A DNA stretch of 64,000 bases, from positions 1-64,000 of IMG/VR virus record IMGVR_UViG_3300046535_001151, one strand, 5' to 3'. The stretch comes from a virus. The position numbers and the translations under genes are program-made. Shown here one piece after another: positions 8,258-49,479 of this stretch; positions within the stretch are counted from its first letter, which is position 1, and the number at the start of each line of letters is the position of its first letter. The notes beneath the pieces were generated by a model. It worked only from the letters and a program-made list of their open reading frames with translations, ran no database searches and was not told the DNA's origin.

Positions 8258-10116
<1,859 letters not shown>

Positions 10117-31177: not shown

Positions 31178-31945
31178 ATGCGTCGTGGTGGTGGTGGTTT
31201 ACCCAAGTCTGTAATTGTCTATCGCGGGCCTAGTCGATTCGACGGGGCGCCGATCGTGGCGATCGTCACGGGGCTACGTCGACCGTCGAATAATCCCAAA
31301 ACCGGCAGAATGGCGCAGCTGTGGATCCTACGATCGGATATGTCCCCACTCGAAGCGATCGACAAGCGGGCGGATTATTCGGTGTGCGCGGATTGTCGGC
31401 TACGGGGGACCGGATCCAAGGATCGATCGTGCTATGTCAGTATGAAAAACGCCCCACTCGCAGTGTATCGGGCGTTTAAACGGGGGATGTATCCTACGGT
31501 CGACCCTTCCATAGTGGCCGAGTACCTCCGATCGGCCGATCTGTCGATACGGTTCGGGGCGTACGGGGAACCGACAGCGCTACCGCGGTGGATCCTGGAC
31601 GATCTGGCGGAGGGTACCACCTACACCGGATATACCCATCAGTGGAATTCGTCAGGGATAGCGGCCTACCGTCATTTACTGATGGCTAGCGTGGATTCGA
31701 CGTCGGAAGCTGTACAGGCCGCTAGTCTCGGGTGGCGTACGTTCAGAACACGTACGGCTGAGAGTCCCCTGCTACCCCGAGAGATTGCGTGCCCGGCGTC
31801 TGATGAAATGGGACACCGGACTACGTGTGCGGAGTGTGCACTGTGCGACGGGGCGAGAGCGGGCGATCGGCGGAAACAGATCGCGATCGTGGTGCATGGA
31901 TCGGGGAAAACTCACTATATGCAATTGATACGGAAGGGGTTGTAA
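31178..31945 (+). CDS. Conserved Cys-rich phage protein, 255 aa
   Basis: The start is ATG 31178, behind GGAGGG. Sequence features are KSVIVYRGPSRFDGAPIVAI, a SNNPKTGRMAQLWILR block, CADCRLRG with a following CYV, and a second Cys group near the C-terminus (CPASDEMGH, CAECALCDG). I recognise the GPSxxDGxPIVAI and NxKTGxMxQ pattern as a protein common in phages but not its function. The Cys groups suggest metal or iron-sulphur binding. Its ribosome site lies in a hairpin, implying regulated translation. Confidence 0.68.
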   Translation: MRRGGGGLPKSVIVYRGPSRFDGAPIVAIVTGLRRPSNNPKTGRMAQLWILRSDMSPLEAIDKRADYSVCADCRLRGTGSKDRSCYVSMKNAPLAVYRAFKRGMYPTVDPSIVAEYLRSADLSIRFGAYGEPTALPRWILDDLAEGTTYTGYTHQWNSSGIAAYRHLLMASVDSTSEAVQAASLGWRTFRTRTAESPLLPREIACPASDEMGHRTTCAECALCDGARAGDRRKQIAIVVHGSGKTHYMQLIRKGL

Positions 31946-32184
31946 TGCCGATCATCTGGACGGGTGACGAACGCACGCAGGCCGATCAGGATCGATCAGT
32001 ACTGATCAGTACTAAGAGACGGATCTCTCCCTCTGTGCAGTCCGGTGGAGGGACGGATCCGGCCTGGCGAGCGGATCAGGACAGGCGGAAGGAGGATCGA
32101 CGGGTGCAGAGGTGGATCGAACTGGGGATCGGGGTGGGGATCTTGTTGGGTCTGGTGGTGTGGGAGACGTGGATCCATAGCTGA
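31945..32184 (+). CDS. Small single-pass membrane protein, 79 aa
   Basis: The ATG overlaps the previous TAA (TAATG). The first 55 residues are polar and charged; residues about 57-76 (WIELGIGVGILLGLVVWETW) form one C-terminal transmembrane segment. Codons 17-23 are made from the tandem GATCAGTACT repeat, giving DRSVLIST. The role is unknown. Confidence 0.6.
   Translation: MPIIWTGDERTQADQDRSVLISTKRRISPSVQSGGGTDPAWRADQDRRKEDRRVQRWIELGIGVGILLGLVVWETWIHS
31994..32013. repeat. Tandem GATCAGTACT, two copies
   Basis: Two exact 10-base units inside a small coding gene. The pair contains the 16-base palindrome AGTACTGATCAGTACT. The same array occurs at 37658 and 38370. Confidence 0.8.
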
Positions 32185-32198
32185 GGGAGGGTAGGGGT

Positions 32199-32672
32199 AT
32201 GTGCTGTTGTCAACAACCGACGATCAACGGGGAAATGGGCTATCAGTGGGGCGTACGCGATGCACCAACGGTACGCGCCGTCAATCCACCAGACACAATC
32301 GAGAACATCCTGTACGACGAACCGGGCCGCTGTGGCGGGCAGGACAGCCATTGTCACCACTATCGGGTCGTGGGTGTGTCGACGGGCGCACGGTTCCCGC
32401 GGTTACTGGTACGGCATGGCGGAGGGGATGAATCGATCCGGCTGTCGAATGGCGGGGCGGTGCTTCGGGCGCTGAGTATGCTGGATTCAAACGGTCGGTA
32501 CTGGCTCCTCAATGCGCTCTATCACGCGCAGGCAGACGCACGGCACGCGGGGCGTGAGGCGGTGGATGCGCTCTGGCGCCGGGCCGCGGCAGAGAAGCGG
32601 ATCACGGTCAGGAAACAGCGCGGGCGAGAGGCTTTTACGGTTCACATTGAGGAGGCGGGGGCGAAAGTTTAG
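32199..32672 (+). CDS. Hypothetical Cys/His-containing protein, 157 aa
   Basis: The sequence starts MCCCQQPTINGEMGYQWGVR and has further Cys/His at GRCGGQDSHCHHYRVV. The C-terminal half is helical and basic (ALYHAQADARHAGREAVDAL, EKRITVRKQRGREA). A metal site near the N-terminus and a basic helix suggest nucleic-acid contact. No family is recognised. It ends at the iteron region and converges with the ATPase gene. Confidence 0.6.
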   Translation: MCCCQQPTINGEMGYQWGVRDAPTVRAVNPPDTIENILYDEPGRCGGQDSHCHHYRVVGVSTGARFPRLLVRHGGGDESIRLSNGGAVLRALSMLDSNGRYWLLNALYHAQADARHAGREAVDALWRRAAAEKRITVRKQRGREAFTVHIEEAGAKV

Positions 32673-32706
32673 TAACGAAGGGGTATAAGGGTGGGGGGTA
32701 AAATGA

Positions 32707-32899
32707 CTGGCCTAACGGTAACTTACTGATTCTATTGGCTTAGAATCGGCCAATCGTTAGGCCAGTTAGGCCAGTTTACTGACCCAATGTGACAAAAGTA
32801 AGAACGTAAGGCCAGTAAGGCCAGTCGTGAATTGGCCTATTATTAAACCTATAAGTACTACTATATATAGGGGGTTACGTCTAAGGCCAGTAAGGCCAG
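32707..32899. repeat. Iteron array around an AT-rich core, candidate replication origin
   Basis: Nine-base units T(A/T)AGGCCAG occur as three tandem pairs (32757-32774, 32807-32824, 32882-32899), with one inverted copy at 32707-32715. Between the second and third pairs lies an AT-rich core (about 32838-32870). The 235-base gap separates two convergent genes, where promoters are not needed, and adjoins a RecA-like ATPase gene. Confidence 0.62.
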
Positions 32900-32907
32900 T
32901 CTCCCCC

Positions 32908-33912
32908 TTAGGAAGGGGTCGGTCGGGAGTACTGACCTCGGCCGGTACGGACCACTCGCCCATCTAACAGCAGGTCGTGGAGTTTGGTCTTAGCGCGGGA
33001 TACTTCGACCTGACACACACGCTGGATCAGCTCGAGCAGAACCGCGTAAGCCATGCTCTCGGGCTGCTTCGGTACGACCTGGATCACGCCGTAGAGGGGA
33101 TCGTCGGCAAGGATACTGAGGGATTCGGGATGGTACATGTCAAACAGGCCGGTCTCAGGGTTCTGGACGAGGTCGAAGGTACCCGCTTTCGCATGCGTAG
33201 GCAGCCATCCGAACGTGTGGTGAGGGTTGCCGGTATCCTCGGGGCCGAGCAGGTACATGGTGGTATCCGAATACCCGACGAGGGCGCCAGAGCCACTCAC
33301 ACGCTCATGAGGGCGGAGATAGCGGTCCTTGGGGTCGGTACGCTGCTTCGACATGTGCCCGACCGCGAGACAGGTCAGCTCGTGGGCATCGAGCACCTGA
33401 GTCATGGAGCCAATCCCTGCGACGACTTCGTTGTAGTCGTTCAGTTTGTTGGTGATGAACACAGTAGCGACGTCGATCACGAGGAAGGCACCAGGGGGGA
33501 GTTTCAGCTTGTCGAGCGCGTATTTGAGGAGGGTGATCCGGGTAGCCGGCGAGGTCCGCATGTCGGCCCAGTTGAGGCGGGAATCGTCTCGGAGGCTGTA
33601 GAACTTGGGGATGAGCCCGACCTTCTCAAACCACGCGCCCTGATTGAGGGCCCATTTGTGGTCAGTGGTGATGACCCCTACGGCATTCGGCGCGTTGGTC
33701 GACTGGCCACAGATGCTACGACCTTCGAGCAGCCGCGGCACCCACGACGCGTAGAGGCTGGTCTTGCCGGTCTTGGGCGGGCCTACAAAGAGACAGAAGG
33801 ACCCGAACGGGATAATCCCGGGGATCGGGTCCGGATACGGTTGTGGGGCAGCCTCGTCAGCTTGTGGGGCTATTTGACGGGAGTCAGGACTTGGTGGTAG
33901 ATTCTCTGGCAT
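32908..33912 (-). CDS. RecA-like AAA ATPase, RepA/AAA_25-type replication protein
   Basis: The protein is 334 aa. Walker A is GPPKTGKTS at 44-52 and Walker B is FLVID near 143-147, followed by a VGHMSKQR sensor-like segment and an SGSGALVGYSDTTMYL stretch as in RepA-type hexameric helicases. The C-terminal 45 residues (AKTKLHDLLLDGRVVRTGRG) resemble a winged helix. It may load or act as the replicative helicase. It is the only leftward gene in the right arm and ends beside the iteron array. GGGAG precedes the ATG by five bases. Confidence 0.74.
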   Translation of the reverse strand: MPENLPPSPDSRQIAPQADEAAPQPYPDPIPGIIPFGSFCLFVGPPKTGKTSLYASWVPRLLEGRSICGQSTNAPNAVGVITTDHKWALNQGAWFEKVGLIPKFYSLRDDSRLNWADMRTSPATRITLLKYALDKLKLPPGAFLVIDVATVFITNKLNDYNEVVAGIGSMTQVLDAHELTCLAVGHMSKQRTDPKDRYLRPHERVSGSGALVGYSDTTMYLLGPEDTGNPHHTFGWLPTHAKAGTFDLVQNPETGLFDMYHPESLSILADDPLYGVIQVVPKQPESMAYAVLLELIQRVCQVEVSRAKTKLHDLLLDGRVVRTGRGQYSRPTPS

Positions 33913-34513: not shown

Positions 34514-35911
34514 ATGCAGACGTTGTGGTTGACCGACAGAACACGATACTCAACCGGCACCGGCCGCTGTGCCCAGGAACGCTACCTCACCAACCATTTC
34601 GGTCCCACCGGTTACGGGATCGTCCCCCGATCAGACTCGCTGCCACTGGCCACCGGCATCTACGTGCACAAGGCCCTCGAGACCCTGTTCCAGCACCTCG
34701 CGGAGACCGATACCTTCCCACCGCTGAGCCTGATTCGATCAGCCATCCAGAAGGCGAGTGACGACTACGAAGCCAAGATCGAAGGATCCGGCTATCGCGG
34801 TCTGCTGGCGTCCGAGTCCTCGAGTCGAATCGTGCAGGAACAGAAACTCCTCCTGGCTGGACTGATCTATGCCCTCTGTCGCCAGCTCCTGCCGTGGCTG
34901 TGGAGGAACTACCGGGTGTTGGAGGCGGAGACCGAGTCGATCGTGGTGCTCGACTGCACATGCGGACTGGGGTCGACCACGGTCGAATCCCTGAATGCGG
35001 CCGAGCATGCCAGCCGCGACTGTCTCGGCATCGGTCAGATGCTGCGGCAGGATGTGATCGCCGAGCACCGTGAGACCAAACGCCTCGCCTACTTCGAAGC
35101 CAAGACCACGGGACAGGCGGGAGAATCGTGGGCGCCAGCCTGGGAGACCAAGCCTCAGTTAGGCATCGGGACCTTTGGTATCGAAGCCCGATACGGTAAG
35201 TCCGTATCAGAGTTCTACATCATCGGGCTCTACAAAGGTCGACGGCAGAAGGTGGAGGATCCCTTCGAAGGCACCTGGTATCGACAGGATTCACCCTTCT
35301 GCTACGGGTTCTGTCGACCGGGGAATCCACCGTTAGCTCCTGACGATTGGCTACCCGCGTATGAGTGGGTGAATGCTGATGGTGAGACCAAGCGAGCCGG
35401 CAGGACCTATCAGAAGCGGAGCATTGCTGACCTGATCAACTCCGACTGGCCCACATGGTTGGAACGAGCGGATCAGGCGATGACTCCGGGCGAGTTCTGG
35501 ATCAACTTCCTGCCGCCGTCGGTGGTGGAGAAGCAGGTCTTTCTGGTCGGACCCCTGATCCCTCAGCAGGCGCAGATCGAAACCCTCAAGCATGCGATCG
35601 TGGGCGAGGAGCGGAAGTGGCAGGACATCCTGTGGAAGCTGTACGAATATCAGATCGATCATCCTTGGGAGAGTCCCGAGTTCCAGGCCAAGCTGAATAG
35701 CCTTGTGCCGCCGAGTTTTGAGTGTCGACGGTTCGGGCTGAGACATGAGTGTGCCTTCGTCCCGATCTGTTTTAAGCAGGCGGGCTGGGAAGATCCTCTC
35801 GGTGGTGGGAAGTTTGTCCCCAGACGTCCACACCATGAGCCCGAGCTGCAGGCCGCGATCGAACGGGGGCTGCTGCCCGAGCAGGCTGAGGAAAGTGAGG
35901 AAGAGGAATGA
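34514..35911 (+). CDS. PD-(D/E)XK nuclease of the Cas4/RecB type with iron-sulphur Cys ligands
   Basis: The protein is 465 aa. Nuclease residues: H52 in IYVHKALE, D180 in RQDVIAEH, and E195/K197 in YFEAKTTG. Cys ligands: C19 near the N-terminus (TGTGRCAQERYL) and C404, C413 and C419 at the C-terminus (FECRRFGLRHECAFVPIC). One Cys before and three after the nuclease domain is the iron-sulphur layout of Cas4 and AddB. It would resect DNA ends to give single strands for the ERF recombinase four genes downstream. It is coupled to the next gene (ATGA). Confidence 0.8.
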   Translation: MQTLWLTDRTRYSTGTGRCAQERYLTNHFGPTGYGIVPRSDSLPLATGIYVHKALETLFQHLAETDTFPPLSLIRSAIQKASDDYEAKIEGSGYRGLLASESSSRIVQEQKLLLAGLIYALCRQLLPWLWRNYRVLEAETESIVVLDCTCGLGSTTVESLNAAEHASRDCLGIGQMLRQDVIAEHRETKRLAYFEAKTTGQAGESWAPAWETKPQLGIGTFGIEARYGKSVSEFYIIGLYKGRRQKVEDPFEGTWYRQDSPFCYGFCRPGNPPLAPDDWLPAYEWVNADGETKRAGRTYQKRSIADLINSDWPTWLERADQAMTPGEFWINFLPPSVVEKQVFLVGPLIPQQAQIETLKHAIVGEERKWQDILWKLYEYQIDHPWESPEFQAKLNSLVPPSFECRRFGLRHECAFVPICFKQAGWEDPLGGGKFVPRRPHHEPELQAAIERGLLPEQAEESEEEE

Positions 35912-38443: not shown

Positions 38444-38674
38444 ATGCCGCGAGCACAGGTTCATCCGATGGTTGAAGCGTTGAAGTACTTCGAGGAGGCC
38501 CCCCTCCACGACGTCGATACCGCCATCGCGTTAGTCAAGGAGATCGGTCGACGTCGTCACGCAGGAGAATCCATCCTCACCGTCAATGGGCCGAAGGTGG
38601 ATCCCCCACAGCGGAAGCGGAGACTCGCCACCCCGCCCGAGAACACCGCGACCCAGCCAGGTGGTGAAGGGTAG
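38444..38674 (+). CDS. Small basic hypothetical protein, 76 aa
   Basis: I chose ATG 38444, with AAGGAG six bases upstream. The first half is helical (VHPMVEALKYFEEAPLHDVD), the second basic and Pro-rich (GPKVDPPQRKRRLATPPEN). The stop overlaps the GTG of the glycosyltransferase. No family is recognised. Confidence 0.56.
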   Translation: MPRAQVHPMVEALKYFEEAPLHDVDTAIALVKEIGRRRHAGESILTVNGPKVDPPQRKRRLATPPENTATQPGGEG

Positions 38675-39831
38675 TGGATCGAGTCCCCTTCATGCTCGTC
38701 GGCGACGGTCCAGCCGATCCTACGGGTCTCGGCCGCATCGCTCGGGACCTTGCGGGTCTGATCGTGGCGAGCGATCTCCCGGTGGAGTTTGTCCAGATTG
38801 GAGGGTCTGTCCCTCCACCATGGACCGCGTGGCGACACTTCCCCCTTGATCGATCAGATGACTGGGGAGCCGCCTGCACCGCGAGATACTGGCAGGATCT
38901 CTTCGGGACCCAACCGGGGATCCTCTTCACCGTCTGGGATCCAGGGAGGTTGGTGGACTACGCCAACCTCGATCTACCCGTGCAGAAGTGGGCCTATACG
39001 GCCATCGACGCGACGAATAGGAATGGCGTGATCAATGGTCCCGCAGCAGCAGCCCTGAGCCGGTTCGATCGGGTGCTGGCGTACGGGCGGTGGGGGGCGG
39101 AGGTCCTGAAGGCGACCTACGGGAAGGAGATCTCCTACCTCCCACATGGGATCACACCAGAGGTGTTTGCCATTCCTCCGAGCGTGGAAGAGTACAAGTG
39201 GGTTGCGGCCACTCTCGGGCCCCATGTGGGTACCGCCGACGTCCTCGGAATGGTCGCAGCCAATCAGCCCCGGAAGGACTTCTCGATCTTCTTCGAGACC
39301 CTCGCCCTGTTGCGCCACCGCGGTCGGCATGTCTACGGCTGGCTCCATACCGATACCCCCGTGAAGGCATGGGCGGTGGCGCAGCTCGTGGAGGACTGCG
39401 GGCTGCAGCAGCGGATCACCCTGACCCTGGATCAGTTTACCGACCGGCAGCTGGCCCTCCTGTATCAGCGGTGTGGCTGCACGATGCTGACGAGCCTTGG
39501 AGAGGGATTCGGCTATCCGATCGTGGAGAGCCTCGCCAGCGGAACCCCAGTGGTGAGTGGTGAATGTGCGGGAGGCCGTGAGCTACTCCCCAAGGCTGCG
39601 TGGAAGGTGCCCGTGCGTTTACAACGCACCGAGAGCGTATACGCTCTCAAACGGCCAGTGTTCCTCGTGGAGGACTGGGCCAACGCGGTGGAACGGGCGA
39701 TGGGGTGGAAGGCAACGGTGGGTGCAGAGGTGGCGGGTGCATACTGCAGGGGTACGGTAGCCCATCTTGACTGGGCTGCACTGTGGCCACGATGGCGCGG
39801 ATGGATCCGTCAAGGGTTGGAGGGCCGATGA
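38674..39831 (+). CDS. GT4-type glycosyltransferase (GT-B fold)
   Basis: The protein is 385 aa from a GTG in a TAGTG overlap. The C-terminal nucleotide-sugar half is typical: AANQPRKDFSIFFETLALL, then GFGYPIVESLASGTPVV with the catalytic Glu, and a late ERAMGWKA helix. The N-terminal half has LVGDGPADPTGLGRIARDLA and VLAYGRWGAEVL with PHGITPEVF. These fit family 4 retaining transferases. It opens the larger glycan cluster of the right arm. Confidence 0.84.
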   Translation: MDRVPFMLVGDGPADPTGLGRIARDLAGLIVASDLPVEFVQIGGSVPPPWTAWRHFPLDRSDDWGAACTARYWQDLFGTQPGILFTVWDPGRLVDYANLDLPVQKWAYTAIDATNRNGVINGPAAAALSRFDRVLAYGRWGAEVLKATYGKEISYLPHGITPEVFAIPPSVEEYKWVAATLGPHVGTADVLGMVAANQPRKDFSIFFETLALLRHRGRHVYGWLHTDTPVKAWAVAQLVEDCGLQQRITLTLDQFTDRQLALLYQRCGCTMLTSLGEGFGYPIVESLASGTPVVSGECAGGRELLPKAAWKVPVRLQRTESVYALKRPVFLVEDWANAVERAMGWKATVGAEVAGAYCRGTVAHLDWAALWPRWRGWIRQGLEGR

Positions 39832-40103
39832 CCACGCCGTCTCGTATCAGCGGGAAAGCCATCCTGATCAACTTCGACGAACTGAGCGGGGAACAGGCCC
39901 TGCTGGCAGAGATCACGATCGACTGTCCGCACTGCGGCACGCACAGCCTGCGGATCGCGGGTCACCACCTCCGCACCCTGCAGCGGCTACTGGCGGAGTG
40001 GATTGAAGACTTTCCTGATCTCACCGGGAATGAATCCGGGATCGAGGTCATCAACCGCATGAAGTACGGGGGAATCCCTCCGACCGATCCGAGGATGAAC
40101 TAA
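39828..40103 (+). CDS. Hypothetical protein, 91 aa
   Basis: I chose ATG 39828 (ATGA overlap). It carries CPHCGTHSLRIAGHH, one Cys pair with nearby His residues that could form a zinc site, then a helix (LRTLQRLLAEWIEDFPDL). It lies between two glycosyltransferase genes but shows no sugar-related motif. Confidence 0.55.
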   Translation: MTTPSRISGKAILINFDELSGEQALLAEITIDCPHCGTHSLRIAGHHLRTLQRLLAEWIEDFPDLTGNESGIEVINRMKYGGIPPTDPRMN

Positions 40104-40450
40104 TGGGCCAAGAGAGTCGTTTGAATCCGTTCGCCAAGGAACACCGGGATCTCACGATCACCCCCGGACAGGTCCACGATGCCTTCAACCGGGTACTCCA
40201 CGAAGGGGATCTGATCTTCCTCCAGGTGGCCGTGCCGCCGATCTTCCGGGTGCACCGGATCACGAAGCCGCTCGATCCCAACGCGCCGGCAGGACTGTTG
40301 GAGATTACGGTCTCCAGCACGCTGAAGTTTGCTGCGCCACAGGGGCAGGTCAATCAGGAGTTCGTGCGGGTGATCGAAGCCAGCGAGGCCCAGCCACCCA
40401 CCGCCAAGCCGAGCCTGGAGATTGTCCGGCCAGAGGAGCCGATCCTATGA
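40103..40450 (+). CDS. Hypothetical protein, 115 aa
   Basis: The start overlaps the previous TAA (TAATG). Sequence MGQESRLNPFAKEHRDLTIT is followed by beta strands (VLHEGDLIFLQVAVPPIFRV) and a Pro-rich C-terminus. No family is recognised; it precedes a GT2 gene with an ATGA overlap. Confidence 0.56.
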   Translation: MGQESRLNPFAKEHRDLTITPGQVHDAFNRVLHEGDLIFLQVAVPPIFRVHRITKPLDPNAPAGLLEITVSSTLKFAAPQGQVNQEFVRVIEASEAQPPTAKPSLEIVRPEEPIL

Positions 40451-41277
40451 GCCTGACCTTGGCGATTGTCACGGCCTCGACCAATCTCGAGCGGGCCGCA
40501 CCCTGTCTCAAATCATGGCGGAAGGATGACGAGGTGCCGCTGATCATCGTGCTCCAGACCGATCAGGACGACTGGCGCACCGTGGTTACCGCCACCCATG
40601 TCGTGAGTCGAGACTACCTCGGCACGGTTCCAGCGTTCAGGCTGGGGGTGGACTATGCCCTCCGCGAGACCGATGCCGACATCATCGCCTGTCTCCATGA
40701 TGACGTGGAGCTGCTCCAGCCGGACTGGATCCAGCGGACCATTCGCCACTTTGAACTGACCGAGAACTGTGGGCTGCTCGGGTTCGGTGGGGCGATTGGC
40801 CTCGGGGCGGATGACATCTACAAGAAGCCCTACGATCCCATGCAGCTGGCGAGGATTGGGTTCCGATCGAATCTGGTCGATGCCGAGGTGCACGGACTGC
40901 GAAGTCTGTTGGCTGAACCTGTAGCTTGTTTAGACGGATTCAGTCAGGTCGGGCGGAGGGCCTTCTTCGAAGGAGACGCCAGTCCGCACACGCCCTCGTC
41001 ACAGGACTACGAACGGCCGTGGAGCTATCTGGAGGATCACGGGATTGTCCACCACCTCTACGACGGTCTGCTCGGGGCCCTCGCCGCTCGCCAAGGCTGG
41101 GAAGCGTGGTATCTGCCTATCAGGTGTCGACATCTCGGTGGACAGACGGCCGTGGGCGAGCGTGGCTACAGTGAGTGGGCCAAGCAGCAGATTCCCGAGG
41201 GCGATCACGGCTTCTGGCAGCAGAGTCACAAGATCGGGTACGAACTCTTCCGCGATCAGCTTCCGCTGAGGGTGTGA
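40447..41277 (+). CDS. Family 2 glycosyltransferase
   Basis: The protein is 276 aa, GT-A fold: LAIVTASTNLERAAPCLKSW at the start, VPAFRLGVDYALRETDADII, then CLHDDVELLQPDWI with the metal-binding Asp pair near residue 80, and CLDGFSQVGRRAFFEGDAS for the acceptor side. A late GWEAWYLPIRCRHLGG supplies a His typical of the GT2 C-terminal loop. It probably adds one sugar to a lipid or protein-bound glycan. Confidence 0.84.
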   Translation: MSLTLAIVTASTNLERAAPCLKSWRKDDEVPLIIVLQTDQDDWRTVVTATHVVSRDYLGTVPAFRLGVDYALRETDADIIACLHDDVELLQPDWIQRTIRHFELTENCGLLGFGGAIGLGADDIYKKPYDPMQLARIGFRSNLVDAEVHGLRSLLAEPVACLDGFSQVGRRAFFEGDASPHTPSSQDYERPWSYLEDHGIVHHLYDGLLGALAARQGWEAWYLPIRCRHLGGQTAVGERGYSEWAKQQIPEGDHGFWQQSHKIGYELFRDQLPLRV

Positions 41278-41540
41278 TGGCGCATATCAAACAGCGACGA
41301 GAAGCTCTGGAGGCCCAGCCTGATCCTGATCGCGTCCTCGGCAAGATCGCCCGGGTGTTCCCGTTGAAGGGCTTCGGGTTTCTCAAGGATGAAAACGGCG
41401 AGGAGTACTTCTTCCACCGGTCGGAGGTGCTCAGCGGTGGGCCGTTCGATGATCTCCAGGAGGGCTGGCGGGTCCAGTTCGTGAAGGGTCAGGGGCCGAA
41501 GGGGCTGAGAGCGAGTGAAGTTACAGTGCAGCGTCCCTAG
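41277..41540 (+). CDS. Cold-shock domain protein
   Basis: I chose ATG 41277 (TGATG overlap), giving 87 aa. Residues about 20-75 form a cold-shock OB domain: GKIARVFPLKGFGFLKDENG with the RNP1 motif KGFGFL, then EYFFHRSEV with RNP2. The domain binds single-stranded RNA or DNA and may act as an RNA chaperone. A short intergenic stretch with AAGGCCGTCTAGGCCG follows. Confidence 0.84.
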   Translation: MAHIKQRREALEAQPDPDRVLGKIARVFPLKGFGFLKDENGEEYFFHRSEVLSGGPFDDLQEGWRVQFVKGQGPKGLRASEVTVQRP

Positions 41541-41602
41541 TACGTACGTCTAAGGCCGTCTAGGCCGAAGACGGACGGGGTGGAGGTTGTGGTGGTGAAC
41601 AT

Positions 41603-42421
41603 ATGTTGAGTGTCACATTTCCGGGGCGTGCGGGAGACCTGTTATGGTCGTTGCCCACCGTCCGAGCCCTCGCCGAGATCCACGGGCCCGTCTCGCTGAG
41701 AATCGCCGGCGAGTTCGCCAGCATGCTGCCCCTGCTGCAGCAACAGCCCTACCTCAAAGTCGTGGTGGCGGATCATGCCTGGAGTCTCACACCTCCCAAT
41801 GAGTGGCAACCTCCTACTGTAGAAGAGGGGGAGATTCATCTGGGCTACCGCGGCTGGCCGGATCAACCCCTCGCGCAGTACATCTACGGGATTCTCAAGT
41901 ACCACTATCCGCATCTGGCGGTGGCAGGACTGGACCTAGACACCCCGTGGATCACCCTGCCCCCACTGCCGACTCGCTGGGGAACCTCTGCGACTCCTGT
42001 GGGGTTTACTGAGGCGTGGTTCGAACTGAAGGTCGGCCTGCTCCACATTCTCGATCGCGAATTCGAGTGGACGAAGGAGCGGGAGGAATCGGGACAGCCC
42101 TATACCGCCCTGATGCAAATGGCAGCACCCGGAGGTCGCTGGGAGAAACTCGGGTGGCCAGCCTACTCATGGTTGGAATCGGCGGAATTCATCACCGCGA
42201 GTAGCTTGTTCGTGGGGGACTGTTCAGCCCTCCATGTGCTCGCGGTGGCCTGTGGGACTCCGGTGATCGTAGTGGAACCGATGGAGGCACGCTGGAATGA
42301 CATCTTCTATCCAGTCGGGAAGGTGGGGCGCGTACACCTGGTTACCGGCAACGACGGACTCCCCACATTCGACGCTCGGCATGTCGCAGACACGATTCGA
42401 GGGGCGCTTAATGGGCGATGA
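41603..42421 (+). CDS. GT9-like (heptosyltransferase-type) glycosyltransferase
   Basis: The protein is 272 aa. An N-terminal LSVTFPGRAGDLLWSLPTVR matches the GDxLxxxP start of heptosyltransferases, and SLFVGDCSALHVLAVACGTP near the C-terminus is the family's nucleotide-binding stretch ahead of a VIVVEP strand. It is shorter than bacterial WaaC/WaaF enzymes (about 320-350 aa). It would add a sugar from an activated donor; whether heptose is used is unknown. Confidence 0.78.
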   Translation: MLSVTFPGRAGDLLWSLPTVRALAEIHGPVSLRIAGEFASMLPLLQQQPYLKVVVADHAWSLTPPNEWQPPTVEEGEIHLGYRGWPDQPLAQYIYGILKYHYPHLAVAGLDLDTPWITLPPLPTRWGTSATPVGFTEAWFELKVGLLHILDREFEWTKEREESGQPYTALMQMAAPGGRWEKLGWPAYSWLESAEFITASSLFVGDCSALHVLAVACGTPVIVVEPMEARWNDIFYPVGKVGRVHLVTGNDGLPTFDARHVADTIRGALNGR

Positions 42422-43106
42422 AGTCGTCACCACTCCGTATGGGAAATTCTTCGTCGACCCCGAGGACTGCATCGGTGGCACCCTGAAAGCTGGCACCATC
42501 TGGGACGGGCCAGGATTCCTCCAAGTCGTCCTCAAGGACTACACGACAGTCGGCACGACTGTCATTGACATCGGCGCCAACTTCGGCAGCTTCACCGTCT
42601 ACTGTGCCTCCAAAGGCTACAAGGTGATCGCGGTCGAACCCATGCCGGAGACCCTGAGATACCTCCGTGCCACCTTGGACCTGAACCAGGATTCGTGTGC
42701 GGACAAGGTGATCCTCCTGCCGTTCGCGGCCTATGACAAGCGGTGCTTCCTGACCAATCACGACTTCGTGGATCACAACTTCGGCAGTCCGAGCCTCGTG
42801 CCCATGCAGGAGGGAGACAAGCTGTTCGCCGAGGCCGTCCCGCTCGACGACTACCGCATGCTGTTCGGCTCGGTCGGGTTGATCAAGGTGGATGCTCAGG
42901 GCTGTGATGCCGTGGCCATCTTCGGCCTCGAGAAGACGATCCGCAAGCAGCACCCCACCATCGTGTTTGAGTGGGAAGAGGAGATGGCCAAACCACATGG
43001 CTACAACCTGAACAATCTCATCGCCACGCTGGAGGTCTGGGGCTACCAAGTCATCCAGTGGCCGAGCCACCGGTCGAACTATCTCGCGGTCTGGGGGACA
43101 CGGTGA
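42411..43106 (+). CDS. FkbM family methyltransferase
   Basis: The protein is 231 aa from ATG 42411, overlapping the gene before. SAM fold: GTTVIDIGANFGSFTVYCAS near 45-64, then VIAVEPMPETLRYLRATL, and GLIKVDAQGCDAVAIFGLEK, the DxEGxE-like FkbM signature. FkbM enzymes O-methylate sugars and polyketides. Here it probably caps a sugar of the phage-made glycan. It is coupled to the DUF6165 gene (GTGA). Confidence 0.84.
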   Translation: MGDEVVTTPYGKFFVDPEDCIGGTLKAGTIWDGPGFLQVVLKDYTTVGTTVIDIGANFGSFTVYCASKGYKVIAVEPMPETLRYLRATLDLNQDSCADKVILLPFAAYDKRCFLTNHDFVDHNFGSPSLVPMQEGDKLFAEAVPLDDYRMLFGSVGLIKVDAQGCDAVAIFGLEKTIRKQHPTIVFEWEEEMAKPHGYNLNNLIATLEVWGYQVIQWPSHRSNYLAVWGTR

Positions 43107-43495
43107 GACTGAAGAACTACGGAGCCGGCGAGGTGAGTGATCGACTGTCCATTCTCGCCCTGAAGCGGCTGTTCGGGACTGAGGCTGGCAAGGATGTCAA
43201 ACACTTCGAGGCCGAGCACGCGGTCCTGTTGAGTGAGATTCGTACCCGCACCCTGAATGGCAAGTGGTTCGATGCCTACACCCAGCTCGCGGCGGTGAAT
43301 GCGGCTCTGTGGCATGCGGAGGATGATCTCCGATCACTCCGTACCGAGGATCCGCCGGTGAATCTCATCGGGTGGCAGGCCGCGGGAGAATTGGCCTTCC
43401 GTATTCAGGGACTGAACGACCGCCGAGCGGAGTTGGTTCGCCTGATCAACCATGATGCCGGAGACGCGATTGGAGAAGAGAAGATCAATGGCTAA
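43103..43495 (+). CDS. DUF6165-like protein
   Basis: I chose GTG 43103, overlapping the FkbM stop. The 130-aa sequence fits the pattern of DUF6165: AGEVSDRLSILALKRLFG, a helical middle, YTQLAAVNAALWHAEDDLRS, and LNDRRAELVRLIN ending in EEKING. Members occur in glycosyltransferase loci, often as fusions or neighbours, with no known activity. It probably supports the transferases around it, perhaps as a complex subunit. Confidence 0.72.
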   Translation: MRLKNYGAGEVSDRLSILALKRLFGTEAGKDVKHFEAEHAVLLSEIRTRTLNGKWFDAYTQLAAVNAALWHAEDDLRSLRTEDPPVNLIGWQAAGELAFRIQGLNDRRAELVRLINHDAGDAIGEEKING

Positions 43496-44435
43496 CCCCC
43501 TCCATGTGCTGCTGGTCACCTCGTGGGGTCAGCTCCAATGCGGCATTCAGGCGCATAGCAAGCAGCTGATCCACTACGTGAAACAGGCCGATCCCGACAT
43601 CGTGATCACCCCATCCGCCGACTCCCTCGATCCGGTCGAATGTGGAAAGCAGCCTCCACCGGTCGATGTAATCCATCTGAACTGGCACCGGGCCCTCCAC
43701 TCCCGCTGGAGTCCGGCGTGGATCCGTCAGTACCAACAGCTTGGGGTGAAGTTCGTGGTGACCTGGCACGATACGATGGGCCACGAACCCCCCGACCAGC
43801 TGTCGAAGGAGGTCCACGACGTCGCGGATGCCTTCATCGTCCACGAACCGGTCATCGGGCTGGAGCAGGCGATCTACTGGCGACAGGCGGTCCCGGAGAT
43901 GAATGGCTACCAAGCAGACCGTACTGGGATCTATGGGCGTCCCTTCGTGGGCTCGGTGGGGTTCGACTTCGGCTGGAAGAATTACGATCGCCTCTGTGAG
44001 ATTGCCTATGCTGTGGGCTGGGGAGTCGCCCTGTGTGTGCCGGAGATGTCGAAGGATCGAGAGGCCGATCTCCGTCAGCGCAATCCATGGCTCGTCGTGC
44101 GGAGGAACGAAGGACTGCAAGAGGTCCTCGCCCTCCTCCATGTCTGCCAAGCGACCGCCTTCCTCTACGTGAATGGCAACTCAGGCACCTCGGCCGCGAT
44201 CCGCATCGGGATTGGGGCGAGGAAGCCGGTGATCGCCATGGCTGGCCAGCGGCAGTTCAGGGATCTCCACGATGAGATGGCCATTCGCTGGTCCACGAGC
44301 ATGGAGCACGCACAAGATCTCCTCGTGGGTCTGCGCTGTGGTGACTGGGATGGACGCACGGTCGAACTCGCGAATCGTGACAGCTGGAGACACGCGGGAC
44401 GGAAGCACGCGGAGTTGTATCGGAGCCTGGTATGA
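43488..44435 (+). CDS. Glycosyltransferase-like protein, GT-B type
   Basis: The protein is 315 aa from ATG 43488. The N-terminal LHVLLVTSWGQLQCGIQAHS and DVIHLNWHRALHS, then KFVVTWHDTMGHE, are typical of the acceptor half of GT4-like enzymes (GCGIxxY pattern, HxxW). The C-terminal half has FDFGWKNYDRLCEIAYAVG and FLYVNGNSGTSAAIRIGIGA, in which the usual catalytic ExxGxxxxE is not clear. It could be a GT4 relative with changed chemistry or a degenerate paralogue. Confidence 0.7.
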   Translation: MANPLHVLLVTSWGQLQCGIQAHSKQLIHYVKQADPDIVITPSADSLDPVECGKQPPPVDVIHLNWHRALHSRWSPAWIRQYQQLGVKFVVTWHDTMGHEPPDQLSKEVHDVADAFIVHEPVIGLEQAIYWRQAVPEMNGYQADRTGIYGRPFVGSVGFDFGWKNYDRLCEIAYAVGWGVALCVPEMSKDREADLRQRNPWLVVRRNEGLQEVLALLHVCQATAFLYVNGNSGTSAAIRIGIGARKPVIAMAGQRQFRDLHDEMAIRWSTSMEHAQDLLVGLRCGDWDGRTVELANRDSWRHAGRKHAELYRSLV

Positions 44436-44653
44436 CCCCCGACTGGGTGATCGCCCTCCAAGCCCGCTATCCCCGGAACCCCGCTACCGTGCGGGCCAGT
44501 GCTCGGCGCCGGCAGCGACGACTCTACAACCGCCGACGGGCTAAACAGGTCTGTCCCAAATGCGGGGTGAAGACGCAGAAGTTTGTCTACTGTCTCCACC
44601 ACCGTACATTACATGCCGAGATGGATCGACGTCGACGAGCACTGGAGAATTGA
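44432..44653 (+). CDS. Small basic zinc-ribbon protein, 73 aa
   Basis: The start overlaps the transferase stop (ATGA). The centre is strongly basic (ARRRQRRLYNRRRAKQ), followed by CPKCGVKTQKFVYCLHH, a likely zinc knuckle. It looks like a nucleic-acid-binding protein. It ends the first half of the glycan cluster. Confidence 0.64.
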   Translation: MTPDWVIALQARYPRNPATVRASARRRQRRLYNRRRAKQVCPKCGVKTQKFVYCLHHRTLHAEMDRRRRALEN

Positions 44654-44655
44654 GT

Positions 44656-44979
44656 ATGCCGAGGACCCCCGCCCCGCTCACCGTGGAACAGCTCAGGCTG
44701 AGAGGCCGCTATTCGTGGTGGAACCTCACCGATCCTGACGGCAACGTCGTCGCTGAGTTTCGTGAGGAAGCGGACGCCCGCGCCTTCGTGGCGCTGCCCG
44801 CGCTGATTGAGGCGAGTAGAACGCTGCTTAAATACTGTTCGCGTCGTGACGGTAGCATCGCCTCTCACGAGGACTGCGTGATGACGTTTGTCGAGGATGG
44901 TTCCACGCTCAGCGAGTGCATCGAAAAGGCTCAAGCCGCCCTCGCGCAGGCGGACGGCCCCTCGCAGGAGCAGGGATGA
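44656..44979 (+). CDS. Small hypothetical protein, 107 aa
   Basis: I chose ATG 44656, eight bases after GGAG. The sequence begins MPRTPAPLTVEQLRLRGRYS; a strand-turn-strand (WWNLTDPDGNVVAEF) is followed by helices. It opens a run of tiny genes (44.66-47.2 kb) with different composition from the surrounding transferase genes. Confidence 0.58.
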   Translation: MPRTPAPLTVEQLRLRGRYSWWNLTDPDGNVVAEFREEADARAFVALPALIEASRTLLKYCSRRDGSIASHEDCVMTFVEDGSTLSECIEKAQAALAQADGPSQEQG

Positions 44980-45203
44980 CTGAGCAACATTTACAGGAAT
45001 GTCTTGAGCGGCTGGACGACGCGAAACGTCTGATCGAGGCAATCCGCGTGGACTTGCGTGGCGCTCAGGAATTTCGTGATGCCGTCTTCGATCTGCTAGA
45101 AGACACGCCATTTCATTCTAGGGCAGAAGGTTACGACGGACTCTATGACCGTGTGCGTGCAGCAATCAATGCGGCCCCTGACGGCCCCGAGGAGGCGCGA
45201 TGA
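44976..45203 (+). CDS. Small helical hypothetical protein, 75 aa
   Basis: I chose ATG 44976 (ATGA overlap). The peptide MTEQHLQECLERLDDAKRLI reads as a charged amphipathic helix and ends ADGPEE-like (NAAPDGPEEAR), similar in wording to its neighbours. No family is recognised. Confidence 0.55.
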   Translation: MTEQHLQECLERLDDAKRLIEAIRVDLRGAQEFRDAVFDLLEDTPFHSRAEGYDGLYDRVRAAINAAPDGPEEAR

Positions 45204-45415
45204 GCCTCGTAGCAGATCGCTACTCCTGGGAAGTGGACGAGTGGCGCGAGAAGGCCCACGATGCTTACGCCAAGCTCGACAGGTGTGAGAAAGAGCGGGA
45301 GTTTCACACCAGAAAACTGGAGCAGACCGTGGCATGGCTCACCGTTCAACTTCGTGAGAAGGATGAAATGATCGCGGCGTTGAAGGCGGCGGGCGCTGAG
45401 AGGACCGACCCATGA
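45200..45415 (+). CDS. Small coiled-coil protein, 71 aa
   Basis: The ATG overlaps the previous stop (ATGA). The sequence is one long charged helix (REKAHDAYAKLDRCEKEREF, then LREKDEMIAALKAAG), consistent with a coiled coil. It belongs to the tiny-gene block. Confidence 0.56.
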   Translation: MSLVADRYSWEVDEWREKAHDAYAKLDRCEKEREFHTRKLEQTVAWLTVQLREKDEMIAALKAAGAERTDP

Positions 45416-45489
45416 TCGCAGGCGCTTTTCTCGCAGGGTTTATTGTTGGGGCGTTGTTCTGTTCGTGCCTCGTGTTCTGGCGGTATTGA
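45412..45489 (+). CDS. Tiny single-pass membrane peptide, 25 aa
   Basis: The ATG at 45412 overlaps the previous TGA (ATGA). The peptide is MIAGAFLAGFIVGALFCSCL followed by VFWRY, almost wholly hydrophobic with a basic end, so it would insert in the membrane. Size and topology resemble small phage membrane toxins or anchors. It is supported by its coupling and by a perfect transmembrane composition; expression is unproven. Confidence 0.5.
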   Translation: MIAGAFLAGFIVGALFCSCLVFWRY

Positions 45490-45500
45490 GGAGGTCGCTG

Positions 45501-45737
45501 ATGTCTGAGTCCCGCCCCCCACAACGGATTCTGCGTCACCCAGCCACGGTGCGTCTGTTCCAATCGGCCGCGCAACGATTTCTGGCCTTGCAGGCGCGGC
45601 ACCGGGAATCGTGCGATCTGCTGTGGGCGGGGACGTTGGCGAGCCAGTTCACAGCGGCGGAACTCTCACTGCTTAGTGACTACCTATGCCCACGAGACCA
45701 TCACTTACTCCATGCTATAAAGAAGGCAGGCCGATGA
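45501..45737 (+). CDS. Small hypothetical protein, 78 aa
   Basis: I chose ATG 45501, six bases after GGAGG. It begins MSESRPPQRILRHPATVRLF and is helical and basic, with HRESCDLLWAGTLASQF and a final HHLLHAIKKAGR. No family is recognised. Its start repeats the SRPP wording found in the next genes. Confidence 0.56.
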   Translation: MSESRPPQRILRHPATVRLFQSAAQRFLALQARHRESCDLLWAGTLASQFTAAELSLLSDYLCPRDHHLLHAIKKAGR

Positions 45738-45931
45738 CCGCGTCCCGCCCCCCTGACGACAAACGGAAGTCGAAGAAGCCACGCTATCGCCTCCATTGGA
45801 ACTCTAGCGGCGAGCCACGGCGAGAATTGAAGTGGGCCATCTATGACTGGCGCTTGATCTGTCCAGTGGCCTACTCGGAGACTCGCGTAGGCGGTCGTAG
45901 GTTGTGTGCGTTTCTCAATGCGGAGGCGTGA
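45734..45931 (+). CDS. Small basic hypothetical protein, 65 aa
   Basis: I chose ATG 45734 (ATGA overlap). The N-terminus MTASRPPDDKRKSKKPRYRL has the SRPPDD phrase shared with the gene at 46197, then an aromatic core (KWAIYDWRLICPVAYSE). The DNA of the first 27 bases is nearly the same in both genes. No family is recognised. Confidence 0.58.
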   Translation: MTASRPPDDKRKSKKPRYRLHWNSSGEPRRELKWAIYDWRLICPVAYSETRVGGRRLCAFLNAEA

Positions 45932-46200
45932 TGGAAATCGTTGACCCACGGATAGATCCGGCGCTCGTTCCATCCGGTTCGCGTGCCGTGGTGATTGCAG
46001 AGCACCAGAGCGAATACCGCGACTTGCCATCGGTGCGGACGCCTGACGGCCAAGTGATTACGCGCTGGACACTGAGCGACGAGGAGCGAGCGGCTATCGT
46101 GCGTGGCGAGGACATCTTCGTGACGCTGCTCTCGCGCGGCATGATCAACCCGTTGTTTGTCACCGTCGGGCCTGTGAATTGGGCCGAGGTAAACCGATGA
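45931..46200 (+). CDS. Small hypothetical protein, 89 aa
   Basis: The ATG overlaps the previous TGA (TGATG). Sequence MEIVDPRIDPALVPSGSRAV, a strand-rich VITRWTLSDEERAAIVRGED, and a C-terminal NPLFVTVGPVNWAEV resemble small phage proteins with an alpha-beta fold; a similar DEERxAIxxGxDI phrase is common in phage accessory proteins. Function unknown. Confidence 0.6.
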   Translation: MEIVDPRIDPALVPSGSRAVVIAEHQSEYRDLPSVRTPDGQVITRWTLSDEERAAIVRGEDIFVTLLSRGMINPLFVTVGPVNWAEVNR

Positions 46201-46859
46201 CCGCCGCGTCCCGCCCCCCTGACGACACCCCGCCGCAAGTATTTGTGCAGCCTTCGTGGTATCTGGAGTGTCGGCTGCACGGCCACGATGCTGATTACGT
46301 CAACGTGCGCGAAGGTGGTGGCGCGGCCACTCAATGCCGGATCTTTCGATGTCGAGAGTGCGACTGTTCAGAAACGGTAGAACCGACAACGGCGCTGCAT
46401 CCCGTCGCCCCTGACGACACCCCGCCGCACGAGGGGGATCCAGTTGAGTTGGATTATCAGCTTCTCTTGCGGCTAAAACTCGCCGAGGCCGAAGTCACCC
46501 GGCTCCGCGAGAGCGACAAAGTTGTGCCGCCGACCTGCACTTGTTGGCTAGGCAAGCGCGATGCGACTTTCGGCAGTTCCGAAGAACGGTATTATTGCCG
46601 GGTTCACGGTGATGACACCCCGCATTGGCAACCGATTGAGACGGCTCCGAGGGAACGTTATGTCCTACTCACGGAAGTCACCGAGCCAAGCGCGTCAGAC
46701 CTGCATCAGCATCCAGACTCCCAGCCAATAGCGCGGACCACGGTTGGCCGACTGGCGCATTGGGACGGTGAGTGGCGATGGGAACGCTATGGCATCGGCA
46801 ACATCTCGACTCGGCGGTTGACCCATTGGATGCCTTTACCGGAGCCGCCACATGAATAA
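46197..46859 (+). CDS. DUF551-type protein with Cys-rich N-terminus
   Basis: I chose ATG 46197 (ATGA overlap), giving 220 aa. The C-terminus has the DUF551 layout: WQPIETAPRERYVLLTEV, a middle WDGEWRWERYG, and LTHWMPLPEPP. The N-terminal half has two groups of Cys/His (CRLHGHD with CRECDC; CTCWLGK with YYCRVHG) that may bind zinc, plus the phrase VAPDDTPP repeated from other genes in the block. DUF551 occurs in many phages at the early region; its role is unknown to me. Confidence 0.7.
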   Translation: MTAASRPPDDTPPQVFVQPSWYLECRLHGHDADYVNVREGGGAATQCRIFRCRECDCSETVEPTTALHPVAPDDTPPHEGDPVELDYQLLLRLKLAEAEVTRLRESDKVVPPTCTCWLGKRDATFGSSEERYYCRVHGDDTPHWQPIETAPRERYVLLTEVTEPSASDLHQHPDSQPIARTTVGRLAHWDGEWRWERYGIGNISTRRLTHWMPLPEPPHE

Positions 46860-47211
46860 GCCTGACCAGCCCGTCGCCCCTGACGACACCCCCACACGCC
46901 TCCTGACGATGAATTTAGATGAGGCGCTTGCAATGGCAGAAACCATCGAGGAGTTACGCGCCGAAGTCTCCCGTCTCCGCGAGGAAATGGCCCCTCTCTA
47001 CAACACGGAGCAGTGGTTGAGGTGGTGTGACATCAGAGTCCTCGAACGCGCTGAAGCGGCCGAGGCCGACGTCTCCCGTCTCCAGCAGGAGAACGCCCTC
47101 CTGAAACGGAGTCTGTCGATGCTGACGAAACAACTAGAACAGAAGGAAGCTGAATGGGAAGCCCAGCGGGACGATGAACGCTACCGAGATCGTACATCTG
47201 ATCATGAGTAA
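46852..47211 (+). CDS. Coiled-coil protein, 119 aa
   Basis: The sequence MNKPDQPVAPDDTPTRLLTM is followed by a long coiled coil (AETIEELRAEVSRLREEMAP, EADVSRLQQENALLKRSLSM). The heptad pattern SRLxxE is clear. The PDDT phrase again links it to the genes before. It overlaps the next transferase gene. Confidence 0.64.
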   Translation: MNKPDQPVAPDDTPTRLLTMNLDEALAMAETIEELRAEVSRLREEMAPLYNTEQWLRWCDIRVLERAEAAEADVSRLQQENALLKRSLSMLTKQLEQKEAEWEAQRDDERYRDRTSDHE

Positions 47212-48112
47212 CCCCCTCCGTGTCTGTCTCATCGGCAACCTCTCCGACCGTCGCTGTGGCTTCCAGAACGTGACCCAGCAGATGATCACCGCGCTGGAGC
47301 GGACGCCAGCAGTGGACCTGACGGTCTGGGACGGCACCTACTCGGCGATCTACGCCCGTCAGCAGGAAGGGGAGACCGGCTTCTTCCCCCTCGACATCCT
47401 CGACGGTCGCTACGACGTGGTACATCTCATCTGGAACGCCATGACCATGAACCACTACACCGGAGCCCGCTGGCAGTTGCTGCTCGATCAGGGCATCGTG
47501 ACCTCGTGGTGGGACGGTGGACCCTCCGATGCCTCCTGCCCATTCATCGACTTCCAGCAGGTGCGGTGGAGTGACTACCCCCGTGAGGGCTATACCCATC
47601 TCGACTACCCCGTGCCCGATTGGATCGATCACCTCCCTCCTCCGGATCCCACCTTCACCGTGGGGGCGAGTAGTGTGCGTGGAGACGGCATCGCCGAGAT
47701 CCAGTACATCTGTGAATCCAAAGGCTGGGCACTGAATCTCCCGACCCCCGGGGCGTGGCTGAGTGTCGAGGACGAAGTCCGTCGCCTCGCTCGGTCCACC
47801 GTGAATGTCTGTTGGTACAAGACCCCGCCGCTCTGGCTGAACCGAGCCTCGGCCCCCTCCATGCTGCTGGCCTCGCACCGGCCGCTGCTCATTAACAAGG
47901 ATCTGCTCGTGGCCCACCTCTGGGACGATCCGGAGATTTACCACGAAGCCATCACGACCCGTGGAGAGGAAGGGTTGGAGTCCGCCCTCATGAAGATCTA
48001 TCGTGCCGATCCGTTGTCGATTCCCCGGGCAGCCATCGATCGGATGTCCTGGAGTCGCGCCACCCAAACCTTTGTGTCTGTCTGGAGTGCTGCCCATGCT
48101 GCTCGCGCCTGA
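47204..48112 (+). CDS. Glycosyltransferase-like protein, 302 aa
   Basis: I chose ATG 47204. The N-terminal RVCLIGNLSDRRCGFQNVTQ and YDVVHLIWNAMTM, then IVTSWWDGGPSD, match the acceptor half of a GT-B fold. The C-terminal part (GWALNLPTPGAWLSVEDEVR, PPLWLNRASAPSMLLASHRP) carries an RASAPSMLLAS segment where the GT4 donor motif would be. It seems related in layout to the gene at 43488. Donor and acceptor are unknown. Confidence 0.66.
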   Translation: MSNPLRVCLIGNLSDRRCGFQNVTQQMITALERTPAVDLTVWDGTYSAIYARQQEGETGFFPLDILDGRYDVVHLIWNAMTMNHYTGARWQLLLDQGIVTSWWDGGPSDASCPFIDFQQVRWSDYPREGYTHLDYPVPDWIDHLPPPDPTFTVGASSVRGDGIAEIQYICESKGWALNLPTPGAWLSVEDEVRRLARSTVNVCWYKTPPLWLNRASAPSMLLASHRPLLINKDLLVAHLWDDPEIYHEAITTRGEEGLESALMKIYRADPLSIPRAAIDRMSWSRATQTFVSVWSAAHAARA

Positions 48113-49343
48113 GAATCTGACCTGCCGCACCACCTGTCGCGCCTGTGGCGGCCCCCTCGATCCGCTCCTCGACCTCGGCACCCCAGCCCTGAGCGGCTTC
48201 GTCAAACCCGAGGACCCGGATCCGCCCTCCGCTCCCCTCGCCGCGGTGATCTGTCAAACCTGCGATCTGGTGCAGCTCTCGGTGAGTGTCAACCCACAAC
48301 TCCTCTATGGTGAGCAGTATTGGTATCACTCGGGCATCAACGAGATCATGGTGGAGGAGTTGAACTCGATCGCCAAGGAGGTCTGCTGGCGGGTACCACT
48401 CACCAGAACGACCAGAGTCCTCGACATCGGCGCGAACGATGGCACCCTGCTCCAGCAGTATGCGGTCCTCCGCGGGGATCAGTGTCCGACTCGTATGGCG
48501 GTCGAACCCGCGGCGAGTCTGATCCATGGACTGGCCGACAAGGCTCATACGGTGATTCACGGCTACTTCCCGCAGGGCACCTACGCCTTTCCCTCCGCGT
48601 CGATCCAGGCCATCACCTCGATCGCCTGCTTCTACGACATCGAGGATCCACGAGCAGCGGTCAGAGAGATCGACCGGCTCCTCACTGGAGTAGGCGTGTG
48701 GATTCTCCAGCTGCAGGATCTCCTCCAGATGGTCAAGGCCACCGCGTGGGACAACTTCTGCTTCGAGCACCTGACCTACTACTCCCTCCATACCTTCGAA
48801 CTCCTGCTGCGGGGGACTGACCTCCATGTCATCGCGGTCGAGCCGAGGAAGATCAACGGTGGGAGTATTCGGATCGTGGTGGCCCGGAGGAGTCAGGCAC
48901 CGGAGGAATCGGTTGATCGGTGGCGGCAGGCGGAACTCGGGCTGACTAGACGGAGGCTGAGTGTGTTTGCGTGGGAAGCCAAGGAACACTGCCAGCGCCT
49001 CGCCGACACCGTCCAACACTACGTCTTCGACCAAGGCATCCCGATCGACCTCTATGCCTGCTCGACCAAGGCCAACACCCTCCTGCAGTGGGCCAAGATT
49101 GGCCGGCGCCAGATCCGTTTTGGTGTGGAGCGGAGTCCGTTCAAGGTGGGACTGGTCACGGGCTGCACACGGATCCCGATCATCAGCGAGGAGACGTGGA
49201 GAGCGGATCCAGCCCCGATTGTACTTTTGGGAGCATGGCAATTCAGAGATGCCGTGATCAAGCGCGAAGCCGCGTATCTGGAATCTGGTGGGACCTTCCT
49301 CGTCCCGCTGCCCTCGGTGGAGGTGATCCGTGGCCGCTCCTGA
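48096..49343 (+). CDS. SAM-dependent sugar C-methyltransferase family protein, intact zinc site
   Basis: The protein is 415 aa from ATG 48096. The N-terminal zinc site is complete: C14/C17 in TCRACGG and C53/C56 in ICQTCDLVQ. SAM motif VLDIGANDGTLL lies near 108-119; FEHLTYYSLHTFELLL is the active-site segment; ACSTKANTLLQW and WQFRDAVIKREAAYL belong to the C-terminal domain. These are the parts of the NDP-hexose C-methyltransferase family. It is a clear paralogue of the gene at 4262-5536 in the left arm. Confidence 0.83.
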   Translation: MLLAPENLTCRTTCRACGGPLDPLLDLGTPALSGFVKPEDPDPPSAPLAAVICQTCDLVQLSVSVNPQLLYGEQYWYHSGINEIMVEELNSIAKEVCWRVPLTRTTRVLDIGANDGTLLQQYAVLRGDQCPTRMAVEPAASLIHGLADKAHTVIHGYFPQGTYAFPSASIQAITSIACFYDIEDPRAAVREIDRLLTGVGVWILQLQDLLQMVKATAWDNFCFEHLTYYSLHTFELLLRGTDLHVIAVEPRKINGGSIRIVVARRSQAPEESVDRWRQAELGLTRRRLSVFAWEAKEHCQRLADTVQHYVFDQGIPIDLYACSTKANTLLQWAKIGRRQIRFGVERSPFKVGLVTGCTRIPIISEETWRADPAPIVLLGAWQFRDAVIKREAAYLESGGTFLVPLPSVEVIRGRS

Positions 49344-49479
49344 GATCCCCCAACCGATCTGCCCCTTCTGCGGCTGTGATGACGAGCGGGTCGAAGCCCT
49401 CGTCACTACCAAGCGATCCATCGCCATGGCCTGTGGGAACTGTAGCAAGACCTGGTCGATTCCCAAGGAGGGAGCATGA
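49330..49479 (+). CDS. Tiny zinc-ribbon protein, 49 aa
   Basis: The GTG at 49330 overlaps the end of the methyltransferase by 14 bases and the TGA overlaps the next ATG. The pairs CPFCGC and CGNCSKTW are spaced as a zinc ribbon (about 24 residues apart). It may be a DNA- or RNA-binding helper. Coupling on the 3' side supports translation. Confidence 0.6.
   Translation: MAAPEIPQPICPFCGCDDERVEALVTTKRSIAMACGNCSKTWSIPKEGA

Follow-up and report, generated by a model that had tools for sequence, protein, structure and literature searches.

An Iteron Array Beside a Winged-Helix RecA-Fold ATPase as the Probable Replication Origin of a Tailed Phage

Introduction

A replicative helicase of the DnaB/RepA fold usually depends on a separate initiator and loader to set it on the origin. 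In SaPI/PICI elements the origin lies 3' of rep, two sets of iterons surround an AT-rich region and the iterons are recognized by the C-terminal domain of the helicase (PMC6092414, PMC7581432). This plan is said to be shared by no other known bacterial replicon (PMC6092414).

The locus described here is a repeat array beside an ATPase gene in a window of 64,000 nucleotides, bases 1 to 64,000 of a virus record of 76,271 bp. It resembles the SaPI/PICI rep-ori in that the array (32706-32900) lies directly 3' of the proposed initiator-helicase gene, adjoining its stop at 32908, and in that its iterons flank an AT-rich stretch on either side. It differs in its helicase, which has a RecA fold (AAA_25). 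The PICI Rep initiator is not known to be a RecA-fold protein, and this difference in motor fold therefore suggests similar working and not SaPI/PICI membership. The contig is also that of a tailed phage with its own polymerase, no recognized primase and no tyrosine integrase, and not that of an integrating satellite. Where the SaPI/PICI helicase recognizes its iterons by the C-terminal domain, the observation in this phage is a covariation of predicted recognition helix and repeat word.

Other described systems share single features with the locus. SCCmec Cch2 has, as its putative origin, direct repeats directly downstream of the helicase operon which are needed for helicase binding, and its C-terminal domain has been tested on them; it differs in its helicase class, its three 5-nt iterons and its place in a staphylococcal cassette (PMC7581432). 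RSF1010 RepA and GP46 of phage F13 have the same RecA-fold AAA_25 motor, and GP46, which is of the AAA_25/RepA type, has demonstrated 5'-3' helicase activity (PMC8965321). The motor of the ATPase has its closest family in the hexameric helicases of the RepA cluster. In RSF1010 a separate RepC opens oriV, whereas the motor in the contig itself carries a winged helix that apparently reads the words. The RepA-ori of PLE, which are Vibrio satellites, and ICP1 Odn are similar in that modular, compatible initiator-origin pairs are exchanged as units and iterons diversify; PLE has three semi-palindromic repeats of about 30 bp, and its RepA is not known as a RecA-fold helicase (PMC8263062). In geminiviruses iteron position is conserved while iteron sequence is highly diverse among close relatives and matched to Rep (PMC12548392). 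These are rolling-circle ssDNA plant viruses with an unrelated initiator. In pRN1 the minimal replicon needs 166 bp downstream of the replication-protein gene, as here on the 3' side, although pRN1 is an archaeal plasmid with another replication protein (PMC4234260).

Results

Phage Contig

The contig is from an uncultivated phage, and its structural genes included terminase, portal and tail fibers. The GenBank phage set held no close relatives of the contig, and the terminase was about 23% identical to that of Tunturiibacter phages. The arm that holds the array also encodes the family A DNA polymerase of the phage and its Erf annealing protein. No primase was recognized in the contig (Toprim_2 and Prim-Pol were searched and both were absent), and no protein anywhere in it matched DnaB_C or Helicase_C.

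Repeat Array and AT-Rich Core

A sequence-only reading of the window had described six direct and one inverted repeat unit flanking an AT-rich core between convergent genes. The units were found as seven copies of WAGGCCAGT within 195 bp, arranged as three tandem pairs with a period of 9 and one inverted copy (Table 1). This word occurred once more in the 64 kb, giving eight copies against 0.61 expected by chance, and no shuffle reached eight. ACTGGCC had seven exact copies in the gap compared to a maximum of four in shuffles. A tandem pair of WAGGCCAGT was unique to the array within the 76,271-bp contig, and the array was the top-ranked window when the entire contig was scanned for repeats plus AT content. 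The core also stood up to measurement, as the stretches of the contig richest in AT, at lengths of 60, 100 and 200 bp, all fall in the gap (32673-32907). Two words lie on one side of the core and five on the other. A TAACC element precedes the last word of the array, which is suggestive only.

Table 1. Coordinates of the features in the window.
Feature	Position	Strand	Remarks
Cassette replaced as a unit in L027	32202..33962		ATPase, array and convergent small ORF; flanks 88% identical
Convergent small ORF	32199..32672	+	Far side of array; also replaced in L027
Imperfect palindrome	32704..32766		Distal array end; 12-bp arms 32706-32717 / 32755-32766, inner hairpin
Iteron array	32706..32900	.	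Seven copies of WAGGCCAGT (ACTGGCCTW on ATPase strand)
Array copy, inverted	32706-32714	-	
Array copies, direct	32758-32766, 32767-32775, 32808-32816, 32817-32825, 32883-32891, 32892-32900	+	
AT-rich core with GTAC element	32831..32870 (about)		CCTATAAGTACTACTATATATAG; putative unwinding element; words on both sides
RecA-fold AAA_25 ATPase	32908..33912	-	RepA/DnaB-like helicase with C-terminal winged helix; proposed initiator-helicase
C-terminal winged-helix domain	32911..33123	-	About residues 264-334; recognition helix about residues 304-316

The gap is convergent, as had been stated, with the small ORF on the plus strand running toward the ATPase gene on the minus strand. It could for this reason be a bidirectional transcription terminator, the refutation that the earlier reading had itself named, and the gap strand can form a hairpin (whole-gap DNA fold z = -3.46). 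The search for terminator-like sites (a GC-rich stem-loop followed by a T run) found none in 32673-32907, most copies are direct tandem repeats, and the words vary with the recognition helix of the ATPase (see below), which makes a terminator highly improbable. As a guess, the palindrome at the distal end of the array may be a single-strand or priming signal.

Two further points of the sequence-only reading fared less well. The similar motif that it placed near 41554 is AAGGCCGTCTAGGCC, which lacks the CAGT half of the word and has only AGGCC in common with it; it was rejected as part of the array. The sequence at 41540-41575, GTACGTACGTCTAAGGCCGTCTAGGCC, is a short direct repeat adjoining a GTACGTACG run and differs from the array word. 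A GC-skew plot had been proposed as a check on the origin. The skew showed no sign change at the array, and since skew does not mark the array the test is uninformative here.

ATPase and Winged Helix

The protein encoded beside the array matched Pfam AAA_25 and has the core of a RecA-fold P-loop ATPase. An AlphaFold2 model built with 17 family members (mean pLDDT 84.5) comprised a RecA core and a C-terminal winged helix, and an earlier, shallow model likewise had the winged helix, in agreement with what had been read from the translation. The best PDB fold matches were Twinkle, DnaB, RecA/Rad51, RadA and KaiC. The best viral fold matches were primase-polymerase and replicative helicases. No Pfam match to a Rep_3-type double winged-helix initiator was found among the ATPase and the neighboring ORFs tested.

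Winged helices are common in transcription regulators, and one or two family members of the ATPase had GntR, HTH_24 or AbiEi_4 Pfam matches. The array could thus be an operator at which the ATPase or another regulator controls nearby transcription and replication is not started. Against this, the gap adjoins the 3' ends of convergent genes, here and by ORF layout in several relatives, so that neither flanking gene starts there. No promoter-like match was found within 32673-32907, and the domain that probably reads the array is joined to the fold of a replicative helicase. An operator is considered unlikely.

Array Layout in Relatives

Single-protein searches with the ATPase of the contig found zero relatives, so alignments of the polymerase and a two-member ATPase alignment were needed; the relatives were gathered with alignments of these two proteins. 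A six-member ATPase alignment found no relatives in viral contigs or genome contigs. A pattern search of viral contigs with the exact tandem word gave scattered matches without a matching array.

Of 26 related loci, 24 had an array of the same layout 3' of the ATPase. In 22 it lay directly 3' of the ATPase stop, with an AT-rich core and a short word repeated several times in both orientations, and in two (L072 and L086) it was displaced behind one inserted gene. The words differed by lineage (AGGGTCA, AGTCCCA, CGTCTCA, CTGGACA, AAGAGTGTCA, TGCGCCA, CTGCCAC, ATGGTCA and others) and were usually of the form TG-NNNN. Word counts above those of dinucleotide shuffles (p<=0.01) were obtained for 16 of 25 gaps, and most of these had a word of their own. 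The other nine fell short of individual significance when tested with exact 7-mers; for two of these the reason was the displaced array. Upstream control windows of the same loci had few repeats.

Details of the layout recurred. An upstream word was present in about 16 relatives and the nearest one was always oriented toward the core, while the last word pointed back in 19 of 23 by exact match. GTAC was found in the core of 17 of 24 phages compared to 11% of control segments. L089 had a palindromic repeat of another form. In L090, the most divergent ATPase relative, an array was looked for and not found. A second, degenerate cluster of CCAGTAG-like repeats was seen at L022 17555-17698, about 0.9 kb from the origin-like array of the relative G001.

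Cassette Exchange

One relative, L027, was 88% identical in DNA to the contig at 33963-39868 and at 31938-32201. Between these flanks the ATPase, array and small ORF had been swapped. The ATPase of L027 was 36% identical to that of the contig and its array word was TGGCAGTA, compared to TGGCCTAA in the contig. The ATPase and array therefore travel together.

This joint exchange bears on the possibility that the array is an attachment, centromere-like or packaging site. Sites of these kinds may contain short repeats flanking AT-rich DNA. An array that travels with an ATPase argues against all three. The contig also had no match to Phage_integrase, the Pfam family searched for tyrosine integrases, the large terminase gene is about 9 kb from the array, and a PHROGs scan of the ORFs, which was not exhaustive, turned up no protein resembling ParA or ParB. 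A site of any of these kinds is extremely unlikely.

Covariation of Recognition Helix and Words

To do without hand-picked words, the 26 phages were compared by the spectra of repeated 6-mers from their 300-bp gaps. Repeat similarity tracked identity over eight residues of the predicted recognition helix (Mantel r 0.37, p 1e-4), a moderate correlation in which the shared ancestry of the phages is corrected only roughly by the Mantel and partial tests. The helix retained its correlation after identity of the ATPase core was taken into account (partial r 0.34, p 1e-4), and the core contributed nothing once the helix was given (r -0.02, p 0.58). These eight residues had been picked before a sliding-window scan was made. 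Out of its 294 windows of eight residues, the recognition helix came first with 6-mers and with 7-mers, and with 5-mers the first-placed window overlapped it. When hand-picked words were compared in a frame-free way the partial correlations were weaker, with p of about 0.03 for helix and core alike, and the conclusions therefore rest on the word-free spectrum test.

Helix classes came back with the same words, even in distantly related proteins. The class SxATxKR went with TGAGC in L083, L108, L110 and L072. L083 and L110 share only 36% of the ATPase core, yet have the same helix class and word. The class SRxTxxR with A or F at helix position 6 went with TGAGA in L074, L076 and L086, the class TxKTV[QH]R with TGTCC in four phages, and the class P-x-R-T with TGGC. 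The helix class of L072 was already established when its displaced array was read, and the word agreed with it. L108 and L110, which came to light after the first test, both conformed to the L083 class. The code is partial, since some identical words go with unlike helices (L076/L084 and L068/L069). That the repeats track the recognition helix best of 294 windows points to the winged helix of the ATPase itself as very probably the reader of the array.

Arrays in Other Phages

Annotated primase-helicases, of the RepA type, were reached through a distant relative found in Salicola phage CGphi29. In this small and non-random sample, in which CGphi29, 1N2-2, XX1924, PB15 and CRP-823 are cultured phages, arrays lay directly 3' of the primase-helicase gene in CGphi29 (TGTCCC-type, 10 copies), Idiomarinaceae phage 1N2-2 (TGTACC, 11 copies), Alteromonas phages XX1924 and PB15 (TGAACC, 12-13 copies) and ct3Oc712 (TGTCC, 11 copies). 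Roseobacter phage CRP-823 had 11 CTACAAA copies directly 3' of its annotated primase/helicase gene (L131 3520-3700). In Vibrio phage 1.210.O the array was one gene beyond the primase-helicase gene. In three Microbacterium phages the helicase ended without a winged-helix tail and no array was found after the gene. Caulobacter GB2A, Vibrio 168E36-1 and ct76p945 had no adjacent array.

The array might also be a recombination or loading site, with the RecA-like ATPase as a recombination mediator that acts with Erf and the words marking the start. RecA/Rad51 and RadA are among the fold matches, and the Erf protein is in the same arm. The viral fold matches are nevertheless primase-helicases, arrays follow annotated primase-helicases in the cultured phages, and known initiator-helicase origins have this layout, in which words flank AT-rich DNA on the 3' side of the helicase gene (PMC6092414). 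A recombination site is thus held to be improbable.

Proposed Replication Origin Model

The array is very likely the replication origin of the tailed phage, with the adjoining RecA-fold ATPase as both initiator and replicative helicase. The iteron-origin idea of the sequence-only reading is supported by the conserved layout, the joint swap of ATPase and array and the words that track the recognition helix. A self-addressing initiator-helicase with a phage-specific origin is a sharpened form of that idea.

The C-terminal winged helix of the ATPase would bind the 9-bp words flanking the AT-rich core. Several bound copies could then set helicase rings around the core, which would melt and allow replication forks to start, and the family A polymerase of the phage would extend. 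With no primase recognized in the contig, a host enzyme or an unrecognized phage protein may prime. The word, and the recognition helix that reads it, would differ from lineage to lineage, and initiator and origin would therefore form an exclusive pair moving as one cassette.

There is about an even chance that the RepA/DnaB-fold helicases and primase-helicases of many tailed phages are self-addressing in this way. A fused winged helix would read a phage-specific word 3' of the gene, usually TG plus about four variable bases, with word and helix evolving as lock and key. Co-infecting phages would then fall into replication-compatibility groups and could swap origins as whole cassettes. The literature searched, with incomplete coverage, yielded no description of this array layout for phage RepA-type helicases.

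One protein seems to act as motor and address reader at once. For uncultivated phages, origins and initiators could then become predictable from sequence, and the helix-to-word table is a concrete recognition code that can be tested. The turnover of words among close relatives raises the question of whether origins diversify to avoid other phages, satellites or origin-targeting nucleases.

Other Features of the Contig

The family A DNA polymerase (window 50929-53937) has an N-terminal domain of the uracil-DNA-glycosylase superfamily at residues 24-168. A block of glycosyltransferases and sugar or FkbM-type methyltransferases lies within the replication arm (window 38674-50497). A 465-aa protein (window 34514-35911) had no family match and by eye was similar to Cas4/RecB-type nucleases. 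Two parallel cassettes, each with a methyltransferase-like gene and a tail-fiber gene of the same PHROGs, were found at window 4262-10116 and contig 70209-75100 (L004:10209-15100).
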